DNA of 64,000 bases from Desulfotignum sp. (GTDB taxonomy: Bacteria > Desulfobacterota > Desulfobacteria > Desulfobacterales > Desulfobacteraceae), in NCBI GenBank assembly GCA_011389575.1, contig JAABUB010000004.1, forward strand, positions 1-64,000. Reading direction: 5' to 3'. Shown here piece after piece: positions 38,981 through 52,893 of this stretch. A program made the position numbers and the translations under genes. Below the pieces are notes generated by a model, which made no database searches, was not told where the DNA came from, and saw only the letters and a program-made list of their open reading frames with translations. Numbering within the stretch: the stretch's first letter is position 1; each line of letters begins with the position of its first letter.

Positions 38981-39904
38981 TCAGACAAGCAGGTGATCCA
39001 GTATGCCCAGGGCCATGAAAAAAAACATGGACAGATTGATGGCATAAAATCCCGGGCCAGTCTTGGGGGCTGGACACCTTTTGAAGAAAGCGGCCATGCC
39101 CACAGGCAAAACCAGTGCCATGCCTGCCAGAGCAACTGAAAATGCATAACCGGAAATACCGCCTTTGATGATGAACAAAAAAACTGACAGGCTGTAAAGG
39201 CTGGTCCAGATGAGAATCTGGATGTTACGTTCTGAAATGGTCCACACGAAAGATGGTGTGAAAAACGGCACATGATCCGGGTCCACTGTTTTGTGCCTTG
39301 ATGCCAGCACCATAAAATGGGGCACCTGCCAGATACCTGTTACAAGCATCAAAACAAGCAGTGTGTGAAAGCCTGTGTAAGATGATGTCACGCTGCCGGC
39401 TGTCCAGCCGATGGCCGGCGGCAGCATACCGCAAACAATCCCCGGCAGTACAGCCAGGCATGTTTTCTTTTTCAGCGGGGTATACAGCCCGTTATAGCAG
39501 ACCAGGGACAAAACGCCCAAAATCAAGGGAAGGGGCGTATGAAAACACAAAAACAACATCCCGAGTCCGGACAAAATAAGGCCTGCTGCAATAACACCTG
39601 CTGTATTGGCTGTTAATTTTTTTCGGGGCAGACTGCGGCAGCAGGTCCTGACAAAATATGCATCATATATACGGTCCTGGATATTGTTCAGCACTGCTGC
39701 CCCGGCTGCCAGCAACCATACAGCAGATCCCAGAACCAGGGTGTCTCCCCCTGGATCTTGTGTGGCAATCACATGGCCGAACACGGCGGACAAGGCGATA
39801 TAAAAGGTGAGGTGGGCTTTGGTGAGTTCTGTGAAAATTTTCACCCTGCCTGCCGGATGCACCAGCCGGGCAGATACGCACATGGCAGGATTACCATTCG
39901 TCAT
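38981..39904 (-). CDS. ctaB: Protohaem IX farnesyltransferase (haem O synthase)
   Basis: This 307-residue UbiA-type prenyltransferase adds a farnesyl group to haem B for the oxidase next door. About eight transmembrane helices are visible. The diphosphate-binding motif reads NNIQDRIYDAYFVRTCCRSLP, and YTPLKKKT with GWTAG mark the second conserved region. The start at 39904 overlaps the coxB end by 14 bases; ATGs at 39955 or 39883 are alternatives. It is the last gene of the oxidase operon. Haem A synthase is not in the window, so haem O or A use is open. Confidence 0.88.
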   Translation of the reverse strand: MTNGNPAMCVSARLVHPAGRVKIFTELTKAHLTFYIALSAVFGHVIATQDPGGDTLVLGSAVWLLAAGAAVLNNIQDRIYDAYFVRTCCRSLPRKKLTANTAGVIAAGLILSGLGMLFLCFHTPLPLILGVLSLVCYNGLYTPLKKKTCLAVLPGIVCGMLPPAIGWTAGSVTSSYTGFHTLLVLMLVTGIWQVPHFMVLASRHKTVDPDHVPFFTPSFVWTISERNIQILIWTSLYSLSVFLFIIKGGISGYAFSVALAGMALVLPVGMAAFFKRCPAPKTGPGFYAINLSMFFFMALGILDHLLV

Positions 39905-40502
39905 CTTCTTCCACCCATTCATCAAACGCCTCCCGGGATACCACACTGACCACACCGGTCATATCTGCATGTCCCACCCCGCAGAATTCCGTGCACTGGA
40001 AAAAATATTCCCCTTGTTTTTCCGGCAGAAACCAGGCATGGGTCTTGATCCCTTTCACCGCATCCACTTTGACCCGAAAGGCGGGTATAAAAAGGCTGTG
40101 GATCACATCGGTTGATGTAATCGTGAGTTTCACCGGCGTGTTCACCGGCACCAGGATCTCATTTTCCGTTTCCTTGCCATTGGCATAAATGAAAATCCAG
40201 GAAAAAGACTGGGCAATGACCTCGATCTCCATGGCCCCTTCCGGCACATTGCGCAACCCGGTATAGGCCTGCCACCCGGAAACGAACATGGCCAGGGCAA
40301 TGACGGTGGGAATAAATACCCAGGCAGTCTCCAGCTTCCAGTTCCCCCGTATGTCGGCTGATACCGGGTGCCTGCTCCTGCGGTAACGGATCACAAAATA
40401 GACCATCACCAGGGTGATGGCAAACAGGAAAACAAAAGAAAATCCTATGATAAAATAAAAGGATCTGTCCACAAGGGTAACCGGATTCATGATATCGCTC
40501 AT
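39891..40502 (-). CDS. coxB: Cytochrome c oxidase subunit II (CuA subunit)
   Basis: This 203-residue subunit has two N-terminal transmembrane helices and a periplasmic cupredoxin domain. The CuA ligands are all present: H135 in TDVIHSLFIP, then C170, E172, C174, H178 and M181 (QCTEFCGVGHADM). This shows it is a cytochrome c rather than quinol oxidase. Unlike many caa3 enzymes there is no fused cytochrome c domain. It is placed after the other subunits in the operon, 7 bases after the subunit IV gene. Confidence 0.95.
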   Translation of the reverse strand: MSDIMNPVTLVDRSFYFIIGFSFVFLFAITLVMVYFVIRYRRSRHPVSADIRGNWKLETAWVFIPTVIALAMFVSGWQAYTGLRNVPEGAMEIEVIAQSFSWIFIYANGKETENEILVPVNTPVKLTITSTDVIHSLFIPAFRVKVDAVKGIKTHAWFLPEKQGEYFFQCTEFCGVGHADMTGVVSVVSREAFDEWVEEDDEW

Positions 40503-40509
40503 CTCGACC

Positions 40510-40794
40510 TCACCTGAATGCCACGTCCCAAAAAATAAAACCGATCATAATAGCCAGAAAAAACACGGTGGAAAGAAAAGACACCACCACGCCTTTTCCT
40601 GCAGATTTCATGTGCATGAACACCACCAGCACCAGGCTGGCCTTTGCTGATGCAATCACCAGAGTGATCCAGACATTGATCCATCCCAGATCGATGTAAG
40701 ACGCGCCCACAGTCACGCCGGTGAGTACCAGCAAAGTCCCCAGCACAAGGCCCAGGGTTTTGTAGGAAAATATGTGAGATGCATGCTCCATCAC
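40510..40794 (-). CDS. Cytochrome c oxidase subunit IV-type small membrane protein
   Basis: This 94-residue protein has three transmembrane helices (GLVLGTLLVLTGVTVGASYI, WITLVIASAKASLVLVVFMHM, VVSFLSTVFFLAIMIGFI) and fits the prokaryotic COX4/CtaF pattern with the conserved KASLVLVVFMHMK. It probably stabilises the oxidase core. GGAGG precedes the ATG. It lies 10 bases after the subunit III gene. Confidence 0.85.
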   Translation of the reverse strand: MMEHASHIFSYKTLGLVLGTLLVLTGVTVGASYIDLGWINVWITLVIASAKASLVLVVFMHMKSAGKGVVVSFLSTVFFLAIMIGFIFWDVAFR

Positions 40795-40804
40795 GCCTCC
40801 TTTA

Positions 40805-41401
40805 TCAGACCACCAGGTAAAACAAGGGGAAAATAAATATCCAGATCAGATCCACCAGATGCCAGTAAAGGCCGCAATTATCCAGCACTGCATCATTTTC
40901 TGCCGTAATTTTCCGGCAAAACACCAAAACAAGGCTCACCCCCAGAAGCACCATGCCGATCACGATGTGAATGCCGTGAAGGCCTGTGACAACATAGTAC
41001 AACCCGAAAAACAGGTTCTGGGGTGCCGGGCCGTCCAGCAATCTTTCCGAGCCCGGGTAAATGCCGATCTCTATTTTGTGGCCCCATTCAAAATATTTGT
41101 TCACCAGAAAAACAGCACCGCAGACCAGAGCACCTGTCAGTGCTGCCAGTGCGGTGTTTCTCTGGTCTTTATGCACCGCTGTGATGCTGGCAGCCACCAG
41201 AAAGGAGGAAACCAGCAGAATAACGGTATTGATCACCCCGAAACCCAGGCCCAGTGCTTTGGCACCCAGAATAAAATCCTGCGGGTACCAGGAAAAATAC
41301 ACGGCATACAGCACAAACAGGCCGCCGAACAGGATGATTTCAGTGTACAGAAAAAGCCACATTCCCATTTTTTTTCCGGTCTGGTCGCGCTGCACAGGCA
41401 T
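40805..41401 (-). CDS. coxC: Cytochrome c oxidase subunit III
   Basis: This 198-residue subunit has five transmembrane helices, the short form typical of caa3/bo3 relatives. Family marks are KMGMWLFLYTEIILFGGLF, FEWGHKIEIG, FFGLYYVVTGLHGIHIVIGM and YWHLVDLIWIFIFPLFYLV. It is not itself redox active but supports oxygen delivery and stability. It begins directly after the subunit I stop codon and is clearly in the operon. Confidence 0.93.
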   Translation of the reverse strand: MPVQRDQTGKKMGMWLFLYTEIILFGGLFVLYAVYFSWYPQDFILGAKALGLGFGVINTVILLVSSFLVAASITAVHKDQRNTALAALTGALVCGAVFLVNKYFEWGHKIEIGIYPGSERLLDGPAPQNLFFGLYYVVTGLHGIHIVIGMVLLGVSLVLVFCRKITAENDAVLDNCGLYWHLVDLIWIFIFPLFYLVV

Positions 41402-43036
41402 TTATTCTCCTTTTGGACTTTGTGCAGACCTGTCTGTCACCCCGGAAAAATCATAGGGATATGCCATGATTTCAGGCGGGCGCACAAAATTGTGCACCGG
41501 CGGGGGAGACGGAATGGTCCACTCCAGGGTCACCCCGCCCCAGGGATCAGGCCCGGCATCTCTCTGCCTGCCCAAAGAAGCAAGAAGATTGGCCACCATA
41601 AGACCGATCCCGAAAATCATAAACAAAGCTCCGAAACCGGCAAAAAAGTTGCCGGTAGCATACTGGGGCAGGTAATCATAATACCGCCTGGGCATGCCCT
41701 GGAGACCGAGAATAAACATGGGCACATAGTGAAACATGAATCCCCCGGTCACAAGGATGGCAGCGATATAGGCTTTTTTAAAATCATACATCCGGCCGAA
41801 CATTTTGGGCCACCAGTAATGCAGGGCCGCAAAAAAGGCAAATCCCGTGCCCCCGAACATGGTGAAATGAAAATGGGCCACCACAAAATGGGTGTCATGG
41901 ACATGGATGTTGGCGCCTGCCGCCCCCAGCACCAGACCGGTGAGCCCTCCCACGGAAAACAGATAAATAAAGCACAGGGAAAAAAACAGGGGCGGAGTCA
42001 TCTGTATGGCTCCCTTGTACAGGGTGGCCACCCAGGAGAACACCTTGATTGCCGAAGGAATGGCCACCACAAAGGTGAGCAGGGAAAACACGAACACAGC
42101 AGTATCGCTCATGCCGCTGGTGTACATGTGGTGGGCCCACACCAGGGAGCCGGCAATGGCAATGGCCAGAGAAGATCCCACAAGGGCTTTGTATCCGAAA
42201 ATGGATTTTCTGGCAAATACCGGAATGATTTCTGAAATCACCCCCATGCCCGGCAGGATCATGATATACACCGCCGGGTGGGAATACATCCAGAAAAGGT
42301 GCTGGTACAGGATGGGGTCCCCGCCCCTGGCAGGATCGAACAGCCCCACATTGAAAAACCGTTCAATCATCACCAGTACCAGGGTGATAGTCACCACAGG
42401 GGTGGCCAGCAGCTGGACCCAGGCTGTGGCATACAGGCTCCAGGTAAACAAGGGAATCTGCAGCCATCCCATGGCCCGATCGCGCATCTTGTGCACGGTG
42501 GTGATGAAATTCAGCCCGGTGAGCATGGAGGAAAATCCCAGGACAAAGGCGGCAAAAACAGCGGTGGACACATTGGTGTTGGTGGAAATGGAAAACGGCA
42601 CATAAAAGGTCCACCCTGTATCGGCAAACCCGTCGGAAAAAAGTGAAAAAACAGCAATTGCCCCGCCGGCCATGTACAGGTACCAGGACAACAGATTGAG
42701 CTTTGGAAAATACACATCCTCTGCACCGATATGAATGGGCAGGAAAAAATTGCCGAAAACAGCCGGCAGGGCCGGTATGATGAACAAAAAAATCATGATG
42801 ACGCCATGGAGGGTAAACGCGGAATTATACAGCTGAGGAGATAAAACGGTTTCTCCGGGAAACATCAGCTCCAGCCGGAGTACCCCACCCAGAAGGACTG
42901 CCAGCAGAAACCAGAACAAAATAGCATACAGGTACATCAATCCGATACGCTTGTGATCCAGGGTGAACAGCCAGGACCGGATCCCGGTGAAACGGGCAGG
43001 TTCAGGTGTTTCATAAAATGATGCGACCGTTTCCAT
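41402..43036 (-). CDS. coxA: Cytochrome c oxidase subunit I (A2-type haem-copper oxidase)
   Basis: This 544-residue subunit reduces O2 to water and pumps protons. Haem and CuB ligands are present: H77 (haem a), H253, the H302-H303 pair, H388 (haem a3) and H390. Helix VI reads MYSHPAVYIM: the D-channel Glu of A1 oxidases (GHPEVY) is absent and replaced by the Tyr-Ser pair that defines A2 oxidases. The K-channel Lys is in AIPSAIKVFSW (K331). The start at 43036 follows GAGG; the frame extends upstream but without homology. Twelve helices are expected. It is led by DOMON and SCO genes. Confidence 0.95.
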   Translation of the reverse strand: METVASFYETPEPARFTGIRSWLFTLDHKRIGLMYLYAILFWFLLAVLLGGVLRLELMFPGETVLSPQLYNSAFTLHGVIMIFLFIIPALPAVFGNFFLPIHIGAEDVYFPKLNLLSWYLYMAGGAIAVFSLFSDGFADTGWTFYVPFSISTNTNVSTAVFAAFVLGFSSMLTGLNFITTVHKMRDRAMGWLQIPLFTWSLYATAWVQLLATPVVTITLVLVMIERFFNVGLFDPARGGDPILYQHLFWMYSHPAVYIMILPGMGVISEIIPVFARKSIFGYKALVGSSLAIAIAGSLVWAHHMYTSGMSDTAVFVFSLLTFVVAIPSAIKVFSWVATLYKGAIQMTPPLFFSLCFIYLFSVGGLTGLVLGAAGANIHVHDTHFVVAHFHFTMFGGTGFAFFAALHYWWPKMFGRMYDFKKAYIAAILVTGGFMFHYVPMFILGLQGMPRRYYDYLPQYATGNFFAGFGALFMIFGIGLMVANLLASLGRQRDAGPDPWGGVTLEWTIPSPPPVHNFVRPPEIMAYPYDFSGVTDRSAQSPKGE

Positions 43037-43043
43037 GACAACC

Positions 43044-44003
43044 TCACAAAGGATTTCCGCGTTTTTTGGAAGGCCTGAGCAAAAACACCACAAAGCCTGC
43101 CAATAGAGCCAGGATGGCTGTTCCAGTGATCCGGAACATCTTGAACACATAGGTTTTGTTTTCAGGGTCATAGTCAAAACAAAAGGAAAGCACCCCCCGT
43201 TTGATGGAGATGCCGGGCTCTCCTTTTCGGGCCTCATTCACCGCCATGCCCAGGTCAAAAGGCAGAAACCCGGGACCATACAGATAACGGATGATTTTTC
43301 CATCTTCTGCCAGCACCACCATCACATTGGGATGGATGTAAAAATGCGCTTTTTTCTTGATGAAATAATACCCCATAGAATCGGTGACCCTGCGGATATT
43401 TTCTGCATCTCCGGTGAGATAATACCAGTTTTCCATGGGAAATTCCCGCTGGATCAGATTGGCATAATTTTTTTTGGCTGCACTGGCATGAGAGGGGCCT
43501 TCATCATCTGAAAAACTCAAGGTGACGACGTTGAAATCTTTGCCCGGTATCTGGCCCACCCTGTTCAGGGCCTTTGCCAGATCAGCCTGGAGAAAGCTGC
43601 ACACTGTGGGGCACAAAAACCAGATGGGCAAAATGGCCACTGGTTTGTCAAAAATTGTTTCCAGCACCACGGTTCTGCCGGTGGCATCCTTAAACTGTGC
43701 CCCAAGATCGATATATTCCCCCAGTTTTTCGTCCACCCTGACCTTGTCTGCCAGATCCGCATCCCGGGCCTCTGCCTCCATGACCATTTGTGCATGGTCA
43801 TGGCCTGTATCTGCCTGATCTGTATGATCTGTATGATCCAGGACTGCATCATCAGGAACGGCATCATGCATGTCTCCATGATCATGGGAGTTCATGCCGT
43901 TTTTTTCACTGCCAAAAGCCGAGGTATGCCATAACAGCACCAGCACCAGACAGCAGATCCAGGCTGCCTGGTGTGATCCTGTTTTTTTGTTCAGCCGAAT
44001 CAC
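43044..44003 (-). CDS. SCO1/SenC-family copper chaperone with His-rich leader region
   Basis: This 319-residue protein probably inserts copper into the oxidase. It has an N-terminal membrane segment, a His/Asp-rich stretch (about 37-72, many HD and HDH clusters), a thioredoxin-like domain with CPTVC (C131, C135) and the distal His in YIHPNVMVVL, and a second transmembrane segment near the C-terminus. Typical SCO proteins lack the His-rich stretch and the long C-terminal extension. Translation starts with GTG overlapping the DOMON stop as GTGA. It lies 7 bases before coxA. Confidence 0.9.
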   Translation of the reverse strand: MIRLNKKTGSHQAAWICCLVLVLLWHTSAFGSEKNGMNSHDHGDMHDAVPDDAVLDHTDHTDQADTGHDHAQMVMEAEARDADLADKVRVDEKLGEYIDLGAQFKDATGRTVVLETIFDKPVAILPIWFLCPTVCSFLQADLAKALNRVGQIPGKDFNVVTLSFSDDEGPSHASAAKKNYANLIQREFPMENWYYLTGDAENIRRVTDSMGYYFIKKKAHFYIHPNVMVVLAEDGKIIRYLYGPGFLPFDLGMAVNEARKGEPGISIKRGVLSFCFDYDPENKTYVFKMFRITGTAILALLAGFVVFLLRPSKKRGNPL

Positions 44004-44539
44004 TTAACCTTAACAACCTCACCTGTGGCAAAATTAATATCATACACCGTCCGGTAGCGGTGGCTGGTGCGGAAGGAATCACGCCCGGTGCCATAGGCAA
44101 TCATGACACGGGTCATCTTGTCGGTATGAACGGGCTTATCCCATTCTTCCGCTGCTGCCACGGAAAGGGTAAAAGAAATGGTGGTAACCCCGTCTGTTTC
44201 ACTGCCTTCAGGATTGATCACATGGTTGCTTCCCCCCAGTTTATCATCAGGGGAATGGCCTCTTCTGGAATCGGCAAAATGGTCCTGAATTCTTACTTTT
44301 CCCTTTTTTACCGCACCAATAATGATGTCGGACCCGCCCATGGCCTCTTCCGGATCAATGCCGATGGCTACCCAGCCCGTGGTTTCAGCGGACAACTGCA
44401 TATGTATGTGTTCGCCTTCCAGGGTCCAGGAAACGGTCATGTCTTTTGCTTTCAGTGTGTGGGCATAGTCTGCTGCAAACAGGCCTGCAGGAAAAAGAAC
44501 TGCTGCCGCCAATACCATTAATCCGATTTTCCGTATCAT
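44000..44539 (-). CDS. Exported DOMON-domain protein
   Basis: This 179-residue protein has a signal peptide (MIRKIGLMVLAAAVLFPAGLFA) and a DOMON beta-sandwich: MTVSWTLEGEHIHMQLSA, TTGWVAIGIDPEEAMGGSD, and IIGAVKKGKVRIQDHFA. Conserved Met and His residues suggest haem b binding, as in cytochrome domains of this family. It is the first gene of the oxidase operon and is coupled to the SCO gene. It may carry electrons to the oxidase or help copper/haem assembly; neither is proven. Confidence 0.83.
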   Translation of the reverse strand: MIRKIGLMVLAAAVLFPAGLFAADYAHTLKAKDMTVSWTLEGEHIHMQLSAETTGWVAIGIDPEEAMGGSDIIIGAVKKGKVRIQDHFADSRRGHSPDDKLGGSNHVINPEGSETDGVTTISFTLSVAAAEEWDKPVHTDKMTRVMIAYGTGRDSFRTSHRYRTVYDINFATGEVVKVK

Positions 44540-44593
44540 TTTGTCACTCCTTATATTCTGTTAAGATCTTGCACACTGTTTTGTACAAAAATA

Positions 44594-45019
44594 TTACCCG
44601 TATAGCAGCTCACCGCCTGAAAATCCCAGACCAATGGTAAGCAGGAGCAGCAACAGATAAAATCCGGTTTGTCTGTCCAGTTTTCTGTTTTCAGGATCAT
44701 CCTTTATTGCAACAACAAAAAGCACAATGGTCAATACTGCAGCAAGCACCATTTTCAATACAATCAAAAACTCCCATACCCCGCCATACCGATGCTGCCA
44801 GTCCAGGTATCCGGTAAACACAGTGGGAGCCACCCCTAAAAGGGCCAGTATAACACAATGATACCCGGTTCTTGCCAGCACCTTTAATCGCGGCAGAAAT
44901 GAAGCCAGGCGAAAGACAACAGCGCCGATCACAAGGCCCATGGGAATATGGGTCATGGCTGGATGAACAGGGTGGGTAAAACCGATTTTGTTCAGGAACT
45001 CAAAAATAATTTCTGTCAT
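44594..45019 (-). CDS. DUF2231-type four-helix membrane protein
   Basis: This 141-residue protein begins with FTHPVHPAMTHIPMGLVIG, the His-rich H-x-H-P pattern of DUF2231, and has four transmembrane helices. The histidines could ligate haem, as suggested for this family. It lies 54 bases upstream of the DOMON gene on the same strand and may be part of the oxidase transcript. The membrane part of the rubredoxin fusion at 13389 has the same pattern. AAGGTGATT precedes the ATG. Confidence 0.75.
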   Translation of the reverse strand: MTEIIFEFLNKIGFTHPVHPAMTHIPMGLVIGAVVFRLASFLPRLKVLARTGYHCVILALLGVAPTVFTGYLDWQHRYGGVWEFLIVLKMVLAAVLTIVLFVVAIKDDPENRKLDRQTGFYLLLLLLTIGLGFSGGELLYG

Positions 45020-45101: not shown

Positions 45102-45154
45102 ATTCAGTACGATATCACAACTGATTCCTGACATACAACATTAAGGAGGTTACC

Positions 45155-45382
45155 ATGGAAATTACCATCACTTATTGCGCGGTATGAAACTACCAGCCGC
45201 GGGCTGCCGGTCTGGCAGACGACATACAAAAGGCATTGCATATCACCCCGGAACTGGTTCCGGGCAGCAATGGGGTATATGAGATAACAGCCGGTGGGGA
45301 AACAGTTTTTTCAAAACGCAACGCCGGCCGTTTTCCGGAAAACCAGGAGGTGATTGATCAACTCAGGCAGCACATGGAATAA
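45155..45382 (+). CDS. SelW-like (Rdx family) selenoprotein with in-frame UGA
   Basis: Reading through the TGA at 45185-45187 gives a 75-residue protein beginning MEITITYCAV, then Sec11, then NYQPRAAGLADDI. This is the Rdx/SelW motif C-x-x-U followed by N-Y-x-P-x-A, at the normal place after the first beta strand. The rest (VYEITAGGETVFSKRNAGRFPEN, in two parts) is standard for the family, which has a thioredoxin-like fold and an unclear redox role. A strong AAGGAGG site precedes the ATG. A short hairpin follows the UGA at SECIS distance. Ordinary gene finding stops at codon 10 and misses it. The gene is divergent from the DUF2231 gene. Confidence 0.93.
45204..45218 (+). promoter_or_regulatory. 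Candidate bacterial SECIS hairpin of the SelW-like gene
   Basis: CTGCC and GGCAG form a perfect 5-bp stem with loop GGTCT, starting 17 bases after the UGA codon. A small stem with G and U in the loop at this distance is what bacterial SelB recognises. Confidence 0.7.
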
Positions 45383-47998: not shown

Positions 47999-48448
47999 TC
48001 AGGCAGCATCAGCCTTTTTTTGCATGCGTTGCTTGGCCAGCTTTACAGGGCTTGGCCCCAGTTCTTTTATCTTGTTGACCATTTCCATGGAATACTGAGC
48101 AAACAAAGGACCTTCCCCCGAAGACAGGTTGTACATTTTCACCCGCTCTCCGCCGACCCCGATCTTGTCCAGAATTCCGGCAGCCTGTTCAACCCGTTTT
48201 CTTGCCTGGAAATTGCCCTCGTTAAAATGGCAGTCTCCTTCCATGCATCCCACCACATACAGACCGTCCGCCCCTTTTTCAAAGGCTCTCAGTATATGAA
48301 TGATGTCAATTTTCCCTGTGCAGGGAAGGCGCACAATTCTGAAATCTGTCGGTATCTTCAATCTCATGGAACCTGCCAGGTCCGCAGCCGAATACCCTCA
48401 GTAATTGCAGCAGAACGCCAGTATCACCGGTTCAAATTCTTTTGTCAT
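47999..48448 (-). CDS. mvhD: MvhD-type electron-transfer subunit, selenoprotein
   Basis: Reading through the TGA at 48398-48400 gives a 149-residue protein that starts [16 protein letters not shown], then Sec17, then GYSAADLAGS. MvhD proteins normally have a Cys in this place (FxCNxC), binding a 2Fe-2S cluster. The remaining conserved region is VRLPCTGKIDIIHILRAFEKGADG followed by VVGCMEGDCHFNEGN. MvhD passes electrons to HdrA. Its ATG overlaps the hdrA stop as ATGA. Without Sec decoding the gene would be called from an internal Met and lose 27 residues. Confidence 0.93.
48368..48383 (-). promoter_or_regulatory. Candidate SECIS hairpin of mvhD
   Basis: Starting 15 bases after the UGA, GGACCT pairs with AGGTTCC (one bulged T) around a GGC loop. 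The stem is shorter and less perfect than in the other two selenoprotein genes. Confidence 0.45.
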
Positions 48449-51400
48449 AATTCCCCCTCCAGCAGGGATTCCACCTTGCTGAGCAATGAGTCATCTTCAT
48501 ACCAGTTAAGTTTTATGGTTTTGGCAGGACATTCCGAAGCACACACCCCGCATCCCTGGCACAGGGCCGGATCGATGTAGGAAACCCCCATCTCGTTGAT
48601 CACCGGCACATTATAGGGACAGGACCGCACACATACCAGGCAGGAAGCACAATGGGACGGGTTGACTTCGGCCACCACCGAAGACAGGGTCAGGTATTCC
48701 TGGGACAGGTATGTGGTGGCCCGGGAAGCTGCTGCCATGGCCTGGGCCACGGTTTCGGATATCAGTTTGGGGCCGTGGGCCGTGCCGCAGATGAACACCC
48801 CTTCGGTGCCCCCGTCCACCGGCCGGAGCTTGACATGGGCTTCCATGAAAAACCCTTCCGGGTTGCGCTGGGCTTTGATGATGGTGGACAATTCTTTGGT
48901 GTCGGCAGCGGTGACGCCTGCGGAAAGCACCACAATATCGGCTGCCGCCTCTATGCGCTGCCCCAGGACATGGTCCCGGAAGGTGACGGAAAGGTTACCC
49001 TCACTGTCTTTTTCCACTGCAGGCGGATCATCCTGGCTGAACCGGGAAAAGATAACGCCCATATTCCTTGCCTTGGTGTAGAACTCTTCCAGCATGGAAT
49101 AGGTTCTCATGTCCCGGTACAGGATGAACACGTCTGTATCCGGACTGGTTTCCTTAATGGCAATGGCGTTTTTCACCGCGCTCTGGCAGCAGACCCGGGA
49201 ACAGTTGGGATTTTCTTCGTTTCTGGATCCCACGCACTGGATCATGATAACCCGGTCCGGATTTCCCATCTTTTTTTCCGCCAACATGTCGGACAGTTCC
49301 AGCTGGGTGACCACGGATTCACTTTCGTTGTACAGGTATTCGGTGGGCTGGTATTCACTGGCACCTGTGGCCACAATCATGACCCCGTGATCGATCTTGC
49401 GCTGTTTCATGGAAGGTCCCACCAGGACCTCGGTTTTAAAATTGCCTTTATATCCGCCGAATTCCACCACCAGGGCCTGCTTGAGCACCTCGATGTGTTC
49501 GTGTGTTTCCACTGATTCCACGAGTTCTTTCACAAAAGCCTGGACATCATCTCCTTCAATGGTATGGTGCAGCCGCCTGCCCAGACCGCCCAGGGAATCT
49601 TCCTTTTCCAGCAGGGTCACATGAAATCCCTGGTCAGCCAGACCTTTGGCCGCAGTCATGCCGGCAACACCGCCGCCCAGGACCAGGGCTTTGTCAATGA
49701 TGGAAATGCGCTTGTCATGCAAAGGACCCAAAGTGCTCACCCGGGCCACGGCCATGCGGATAAGATCCTTGGCCTTGGCAGTGGCTTTTTCCGGTTCATG
49801 AAAATGCATCCAGGAATCCTGGTTTCTGATATTGGCCATTTCAAACAGATATTTGTTCAGACCGGCTTCTTCCAGGGTATCCATGAAAATGCCCTCATGG
49901 GTTTTCGGGGTGCAGGATGCCACCACCACCCGATTGAGCTGGTGTTCGTTGATGATCTCCTTGATGGATACCTGGGTGTCCTGGGAGCAGGTGAACAGAT
50001 TTTCACCGGTATACACCACATTGGGAAGGGTCTTGGTATAGGCTTCCACCTCTTCCACATCGATGACCCCGGCAATATTGATACCGCATTTGCACACAAA
50101 CACCCCCACCCGGGGTTCTTCTCCCAGCACATCCCGCTCTTCGGGCATGGACACGGTTTTGGTCAGGGTGTGCCGGGCAGGTGACAGGTTTCTGCCTGCA
50201 GCACAGGCAGCACCCGAGGCTTCGGTCACAGACGAGGGAATATCTTTGGGTCCCTGAAAGGAGCCTGACACAAACACGCCGGGACGGCTGGTCTCCAGGG
50301 GACTGAAGGTTGGGGTTTTTACAAAGTTATAGGGATTGAGGGCAACCCCGATGCGGTTGGCCAGATCCACACTTTCTTTGGGAATGGTCAGCCCCACGGA
50401 CAAAATGACCATGTCAAACACTTCCTGTTGCATCTGGCCTGCCTCATCCACATAGTTAAGGATGAGATTGTCGGTGCCCGGTTCCTCCACCACGGAATGG
50501 ATCCGTGATTTGACAAACCGTACCCCTTCCTGGTCTGCGGCCCGGTTATAGTATTTTTCATAATCCTTGCCGAATGTCCGCATATCCATGTTGAAGATTG
50601 CGGCGTCCAGCTCTTTTTCCGAATGTTCCTTGGCGATCATGGCATCTTTGATGGCATACATGCAGCACACCGAAGAGCAGTACCCGTTGCCGCACCGGTT
50701 GGTATCCCTGGAACCGATGCACTGGAGCCAGGCGATCTTTTCCGGTTCTTTTTCATCAGAGGGCCGCACCAGATGCCCCATGGTGGGACCGCCGGCAGAA
50801 AGAATCCGCTCAAACTCCAACGATGTCATGACATTTTTGGACCGTTTGTACATATAGATGTCATCCAGACCGGAGGGATCAAAGGTGGTGGCGCCTGTGG
50901 TCATGATCACCGAGCCCACGTTGACATCCCGGACCACCGGCACCTGGTCGTGGTCCACAGCCCCGGCAAGGCACACCTCCACACACTGGTAGCACTCGGA
51001 ACAGATGCCGCAGGACAGGCACCGGGCCGCTTCCCGGTCGATCAGTTCTTTGGCCAGCGCCAGGGTCACTTCCTTGAAATTACCTTCTCTTTGTGCCACC
51101 TGCAGTTTTTCCGGTGTCACCCGGTTGATCTGCGGCACATTGTCTATTTCCGGTTTTTCAAAATCCCAGGATTTTTCTCTGCCTTCTGCCAGATCCAGGC
51201 CGTTGATATACCGGTGAATACTTTCCGCCGCAGTCTTGCCCGATGCCACGGCATCCACCACGGATTTGGGGCCGTAAAACGCATCTCCGCCTGCAAACAC
51301 CCACTCAACAGGGGTCTGGAGGGTCACAGGATCTGCCGCATATCCGCCGGGAGGGGTCAGGGCTATGCCCTGGTCTTTGGCAAATTCGGTTTCTCCCATC

Positions 51401-52893
51401 TGGCCGATGGCCACGATCACGGTATCTGCTTCATGGGAGATCAGCTGACAGTCATCGTACTGGGGGTTGAACCGGCCGTTTTCGTCAAACACAGCAGTGC
51501 ATTCCTGAAAAGAGACTTCAGTGATCTTTCCGTTTTCATCTCCGTAAAACCGCAGGGGGCCTTTGCTGTTCACGATATTGACTTTTTCTTCCAGGGCTTC
51601 TTCAATCTCATAATCCCAGGCCGGCATCTCTTCTCGTTTTTCCAGACACACCATGGTGACATCATCGGATCCCAGGCGCCGGGCAGTGAGTGCCACGTCC
51701 ACGGCCACGTTGCCGCCGCCGATGACAATGGTTTTGCCGGACAGTTTGTCGGCCTTGCCCATGGCAGCATCCCGCAAAAATGTGGTGCCGCCCAGTACAC
51801 CTTTCAGGTCTTCTCCTTTGACACCCAGAGAACGCGATCCGTGCAGGCCCGTGGCCATGAACGCCGATGCAAATCCCTCTTTTTTCAGGCTGTCCAGGGT
51901 GATGTCTTTGCCGAATTCCATGCCGGTCTTGATCTCTACCCCCAAAGCTTCGATCACGGCAATCTCTTTTTCCAGCTCCGCCTTGGGCAGCCGGTATTCT
52001 GGAATGCCCACCGCCATCATGCCGCCTTTTACCGGCAGTTTTTCATATACTGTGACCCCGTATCCCTTTTGGGCCAGATAATAGGCTGCGGTGAGACCGG
52101 CCGGGCCGGACCCGATAATGGCCACTTTTTCATCTCTTTTTTCTTGAATTTCCGGGAGCCACGCAGATTCCTGTTCAAAATCAAGGTCTGCCAGAAACCG
52201 GTGCAGATACTGGATGGCCAGGGGCTGGTCTGCGTCGCCTCTGGTGCACACCGCTTCACAGGGATGGTGACAGACCCGACCGCAGGAGCCGGGAAACGGG
52301 TGTTCCTGCTTGAACAGTTTCAATGCTTCTGCATATTTTTCCTGCTGCATCAGGGCAATGAACCCCTGGATGGACACATGGGCAGGACAGGTGGCTTTGC
52401 AGGGCGCAACAGAGTGCTTGGAAATGCCGTAGGCCCCGGGAATGGCCTGTTCATACTGTTTAAAAATAGCTTTGCGCTGATTCAGGGCCTCGTTATGCTC
52501 GCTGGGGGTATCCACCGGACACACTTTGGTGCATTCCCCGCAGGAGGTACATTTGGATATATCGACAAACCGCGGTTTTTCTTTTATTCTGGCCGTGAAG
52601 TTTCCCTGTTCACCATCCAATTCCAGAAGTTCGGTATTCGTCAACAACTCTATGTTCAGATGCCGGCCGACCTCGACCAGTTTGGGTGAGATCACTCACA
52701 TGGTACAGTCATTGGTCGGAAATGTCTTATCCAGCCGGGCCATCATACCGCCGATGGCATATGATTTTTCAACCAGATAGACATAATAGCCTGAATTGGC
52801 CAGGTCAATGGCGGACTGCATACCTGCAATCCCGCCACCAAGGACCATGACAGACCCTACAAGGTTGCTGTTTGGTGTCACCTTCTGCGTCAT
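48445..52893 (-). CDS. hdrA: Selenocysteine-containing HdrA with inserted NfnB/GltD-like module and second HdrA
   Basis: Decoding the TGA at 52696-52698 as Sec joins two frames into one 1482-residue protein. Residues 1-125 are HdrA-like: FAD site [27 protein letters not shown] then Sec66, [12 protein letters not shown], and a 4Fe-4S motif C115-C125. About 130-580 is a GltD/NfnB-like module with [18 protein letters not shown] and a second dinucleotide site [17 protein letters not shown]. About 585-860 continues HdrA ([13 protein letters not shown]). About 870-1482 is a second HdrA module ([19 protein letters not shown]) ending in two ferredoxin clusters, [12 protein letters not shown] and [12 protein letters not shown]. 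The ATG at 52893 follows GGAGG. Confidence 0.92.
52663..52680 (-). promoter_or_regulatory. Candidate SECIS hairpin of hdrA
   Basis: CTGGTC and GGCCGG form a 6-bp stem (with G-U pairs) around the loop GAGGTC, beginning 16 bases after the UGA. Both distance and the GGU in the loop fit the bacterial SECIS pattern. Confidence 0.65.

Follow-up and report, generated by a model that had tools for sequence, protein, structure and literature searches.

The window analysed here, a 64,000-nucleotide stretch of DNA from a Desulfotignum metagenome-assembled genome (MAG), contains on its forward strand, at 45155..45382, a frame that is interrupted at codon 11 by a TGA, which raises the question of whether this triplet is a stop or a selenocysteine (Sec) codon in a SelW-like selenoprotein gene. 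The frame starts with an ATG at 45155 and is closed by a TAA at 45380–45382; with the TGA (45185..45187) read as Sec, it encodes 75 residues (MEITITYCAVUNYQPRAAGLADDIQKALHITPELVPGSNGVYEITAGGETVFSKRNAGRFPENQEVIDQLRQHME). The first-pass annotation had placed the TGA at the Sec position of a C-A-V-U motif followed by N-Y-x-P-x-A, and both are present in the sequence; the CxxU redox motif, C8-A-V-U11, occupies 45176..45187, and the translation continues with NYQPRA. The ribosome site that it had described is present as well, as a Shine-Dalgarno sequence (TTAAGGAGGTTACCATG, with AAGGAGG at 45143..45149) located 5 bases upstream of the start codon; TTAAGGAGGTTACC precedes the ATG at 45155. The “good promoter” proposed at the same time did not hold up, however, as a scan for sigma-70-like sites identified no promoter for this gene, with a single match found against 1.6 expected, and this match overlaps both the Shine-Dalgarno sequence and the start codon. 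The mechanical list of open reading frames contains only a 48-residue, TTG-started fragment of the frame, indicating that naive gene calling would miss the gene, as had been stated; annotation is known to miss SelW genes entirely (PMC4607533).

The read-through protein matched the Rdx family (PF10262) with E = 3.4e-18 and 66.1 bits (cut-off 22.6) over profile positions 1–73 of 74, confirming the suggested resemblance to Rdx/SelW proteins and the family-like sequence through to the TAA. It also scored 55 bits against TIGR02174 (CXXU_selWTH, covering SelT, SelW, and SelH; cut-off 34.2), while the score against NF041051, the SelTWH_Campy equivalog, was 84.9 bits (E = 3.4e-24), missing the curated cut-off of 88 by 3 bits. 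The CxxU or CxxC motif near the N-terminus of Rdx and SelW/SelT/SelH proteins is represented by C8-A-V-U11, in which C8 and the column holding the TGA or C11 are invariant among 22 aligned proteins. A search of PDB sequences with the read-through protein retrieved bacterial SelW-related proteins of solved structure, and in both alignments shown (2oka and 2fa8) the TGA position is occupied by Cys. An AlphaFold model, built from an alignment of 22 homologues, reached a pLDDT of 95 and presented the thioredoxin-like fold of the Rdx family, with the order beta-alpha-beta-beta-beta-alpha and the CxxU loop joining the first strand and helix. Foldseek matched this model to 2fa8, 2ojl, 2oka, 2obk, and 2p0g with a TM score of about 0.9; these SelW-related structures were followed by MIEN1 and mouse SelW, with thioredoxins matching more weakly. 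The Cys-containing bacterial Rdx structures (2fa8, 2oka, 2obk, 2ojl, 2p0g, and 3dex) share the fold at about 30% identity, while the N- and C-termini of the product described here are shorter; mammalian selenoprotein W (2npb) shares the CxxU motif and the Rdx fold but is remote in sequence.

The gene, with one TGA, was found in each of the 13 genus genomes. Of 86 genomes in the family, 49 presented a match, 48 of which contained the in-frame TGA; the sole exception (G043) is partial and adjoins a stretch of N, and in two TGA-containing matches (G061 and G074) the terminal TAA also falls inside the aligned range. Across the class, 53 of 56 NF041051 matches contained the TGA; two of the three without it are partial and one (G111) is full-length and has TGC in place of the Sec codon (YCITCNYRP; L072, 1000–1204). 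TGA-bearing homologues were also found in MAGs of Thermoanaerobaculia, Myxococcota, Tectomicrobia, and Desulfobulbaceae. In a set of 36 distinct homologous sequences, each one carried TGA at this codon, which makes a chance explanation untenable. Among 12 distinct sequences of the genus, dN/dS was 0.095 before the TGA and 0.18 after it, the latter value indicating that translation and selection continue beyond the TGA. Among the class matches, G111 was the sole full-length one with Cys, and its genome keeps selB; its hairpin looks partly decayed, suggestive of a change from Sec to Cys or the reverse. A single full-length Cys form agrees with the previous report that organisms using Sec have few or no Cys forms of SelW-like proteins (PMC1794560).

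Immediately downstream of the TGA we identified a hairpin with G in its apical loop, at 45204..45218, consisting of a 5-bp stem (CTGCC at 45204–45208 and GGCAG at 45214–45218) and a GGTCT loop (45209–45213); 16 nt separate it from the TGA, and the loop lies 21 nt from the TGA, at the SECIS distance claimed in the first-pass annotation. By itself, such a hairpin is weak evidence: of the 2289 TGAs in the window, 7.3% have a loosely SECIS-like hairpin after them, but only one, the Sec codon of the selW-like gene, is followed by a hairpin whose loop is GGTCT. Among 29 sequences of the family, codons 17, 18, and 20 are invariant (GCT, GCC, and CTG, each 29/29) and codons 19 and 21 hardly vary, and in the genus pS was 0.07 for hairpin codons 17–22 versus 0.57 after codon 23. 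Across 24 aligned sequences, the five stem pairs form in 96.7% of cells, with two of the five changing on both sides; the covariation score of 0.206 (shuffled mean 0.057) was reached by none of 500 shuffles, and registers slid along the alignment scored at most 0.05. The minimum free energy (MFE) of the window sequence was no lower than that of synonymously recoded controls, partly because the recoding pool holds the hairpin codons and the lower part pairs alternatively, the MFE structure of a longer segment being an alternative one; MFE was thus no useful discriminator here, and the hairpin was assessed by synonymous-site conservation and covariation. A search of the window against Rfam at gathering thresholds gave no matches.

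The ordinary MFE would also be expected if the hairpin were a by-product of the conserved AAGLAD protein motif and no RNA signal at all, and the residues concerned are indeed strongly conserved. Protein conservation does not account for the nearly frozen synonymous sites of these codons, however, as other invariant residues use three to four codons (up to four for those outside the hairpin in the 29 family sequences), nor for a stem that is kept by compensatory changes in distant homologues, and we consider this explanation very improbable. Judged from the frozen synonymous sites, the covariation, and the uniqueness of the GGTCT-loop hairpin among those following TGAs in the window, the hairpin is a bacterial SECIS and acts as an RNA signal. 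The same covariation also argues against the TGA being an ordinary stop, either in a decayed SelW pseudogene or because a Cys codon of a SelW homologue was misread in sequencing. In favour of this reading, TGA is one nucleotide away from TGC and TGT, and the assembly that holds the window is a draft MAG, but a stop or an error is already refuted by the conservation of the TGA across genera and phyla, and conflicts with its occurrence in all 36 distinct homologous sequences and with the purifying selection that persists past it; its probability is negligible.

Equally hard to credit is a TGA read without selenium, either as a standard amino acid under a reassigned code (TGA as W or G) or by generic read-through; while the frame would be open under any sense reading of TGA, several orthologues (L019, L022–L024, and L026–L028) themselves end in TGA, as does the window's MvhD frame, so that TGA is also used as a stop; in addition, the TGA at codon 11 coincides exactly with the Sec/Cys position, and the conserved hairpin comes after it. 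Furthermore, the Sec machinery, which had been named as a check and was sought family by family, was found in full in the host genome (3.56 Mb in 163 contigs; 83% estimated completeness; closest named relatives, other Desulfotignum MAGs): selA (599 bits), a full-length selB (344 bits, over the cut-off), selD (368 bits), and a tRNA-Sec with the anticodon TCA (UCA) that scored 76.9 bits (gathering score 47). As selB was present in all 47 genomes checked, comparing the presence of selB with that of SelW is uninformative. Taken together, we regard 45155–45382 as a genuine bacterial gene for a SelW-like selenoprotein of the Rdx family, with Sec predicted at the UGA, and assign this reading a probability of about 0.97; as judged from sequence comparison, UGA codon 11 very probably encodes Sec.

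SelW-like proteins rank with the most common selenoproteins known from bacteria; they have been recognised since the mid-2000s and are widespread, with members described in Desulfotalea psychrophila, Geobacter sulfurreducens, Campylobacterota, and marine metagenomes (PMC1794560, PMC4607533, PMC1088965, PMC2398784); the first two species were already listed in 2006 (PMC1794560). The gene described here is a further member of this published family, to be expected from the published surveys; it shares with the other bacterial members the size, the CxxU motif, the thioredoxin-like fold, the hidden TGA, and the directly downstream SECIS, and nothing of substance sets it apart except a further species and the local residues AVU and NYQP. 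The form of its hairpin agrees with the 5/6-bp apical hairpin and invariant loop guanosine of epsilonproteobacterial selenoprotein mRNAs (PMC4607533). In eukaryotic selenoprotein W, the SECIS is located in the 3′ UTR, whereas here it lies inside the coding sequence. The minimal SECIS of E. coli fdhF is likewise a short apical hairpin a few nt past the UGA whose loop begins with G, and it has the same GGUCU loop as the selW-like hairpin. In the latter, a lower stem is not evident, and conservation is confined to the 5-bp apical stem.

Expression of the gene would involve initiation at 45155, recruitment by the SECIS hairpin (starting 16 nt past the UGA) of SelB with Sec-tRNA-Sec at codon 11, and insertion of Sec in competition with release factor 2 (RF2), placing Sec in the thiol/selenol redox site C8-x-x-U11. 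We infer Sec incorporation at UGA codon 11 by this route, which is the standard one in bacteria (PMC4513850). The 75-residue product is most likely a small cytosolic thiol/selenol oxidoreductase; the function of SelW-like proteins is unclear and probably redox-related, and an interaction with glutathione has been reported (PMC1088965). With the physiological role of bacterial SelW unclear, an anaerobe that keeps the gene throughout its genus is a fair place to test it, and the annotation of a conserved Desulfobacteraceae gene is corrected.

In 13 of 13 genomes of the genus, selW is arranged head to head with a gene for a DUF2231 membrane protein, which is followed by one for a DOMON protein and, where the locus extends far enough, by genes for a SCO-like protein and cox1. 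In the window, these cytochrome c oxidase genes and the genes for the SCO, DOMON, and DUF2231 proteins occupy 39891–45019 on the reverse strand, divergent from selW, with the neighbours conserved across the genus; it is possible that they form an oxygen-defence cluster in this sulfate reducer. A search at E 1e-6 of loci from the other genera of the family did not recover this neighbourhood, making a functional link of selW to the cluster only a lead; that SelW in Desulfotignum contributes its selenol there to redox or copper-centre maturation as part of oxygen defence seems improbable.

Downstream of selW, the opposite strand contains yebG, followed by metF, metV, mvhD, and hdrA, the last two of which are also Sec genes, 3–8 kb from selW; the 64-kb stretch thus has three Sec genes that the standard list of open reading frames breaks or misses. 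Both belong to Sec families already listed in the literature, as FrhD and HdrA (PMC1794560). The MvhD/FlpD-like gene (48448..47999, reverse strand) carries its in-frame TGA at codon 17 (U17, in CCNYU); its standard frame begins only at 48367, and read-through raised the FlpD Pfam score from 120.5 bits (profile positions 21–123) to 156.5 bits (positions 1–123). The HdrA-like gene (52893..48445, reverse strand) is preceded by TTAGGAGG and has its TGA at codon 66 (U66, in TNDCTMU), directly followed by the GTG (52695) at which the standard frame begins. Folding placed a hairpin after the TGA in both genes, that of hdrA having 6–7 bp and a G-containing loop. A codon-bias scan of the window for TGA-interrupted genes recovered hdrA and mvhD, but its noise was too high for further candidates to be named. 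Elsewhere in the host genome, selD (contig C105) is likewise a Sec gene, with its own in-frame TGA (KGAGU, in CVKGAGUAAKLPPG).
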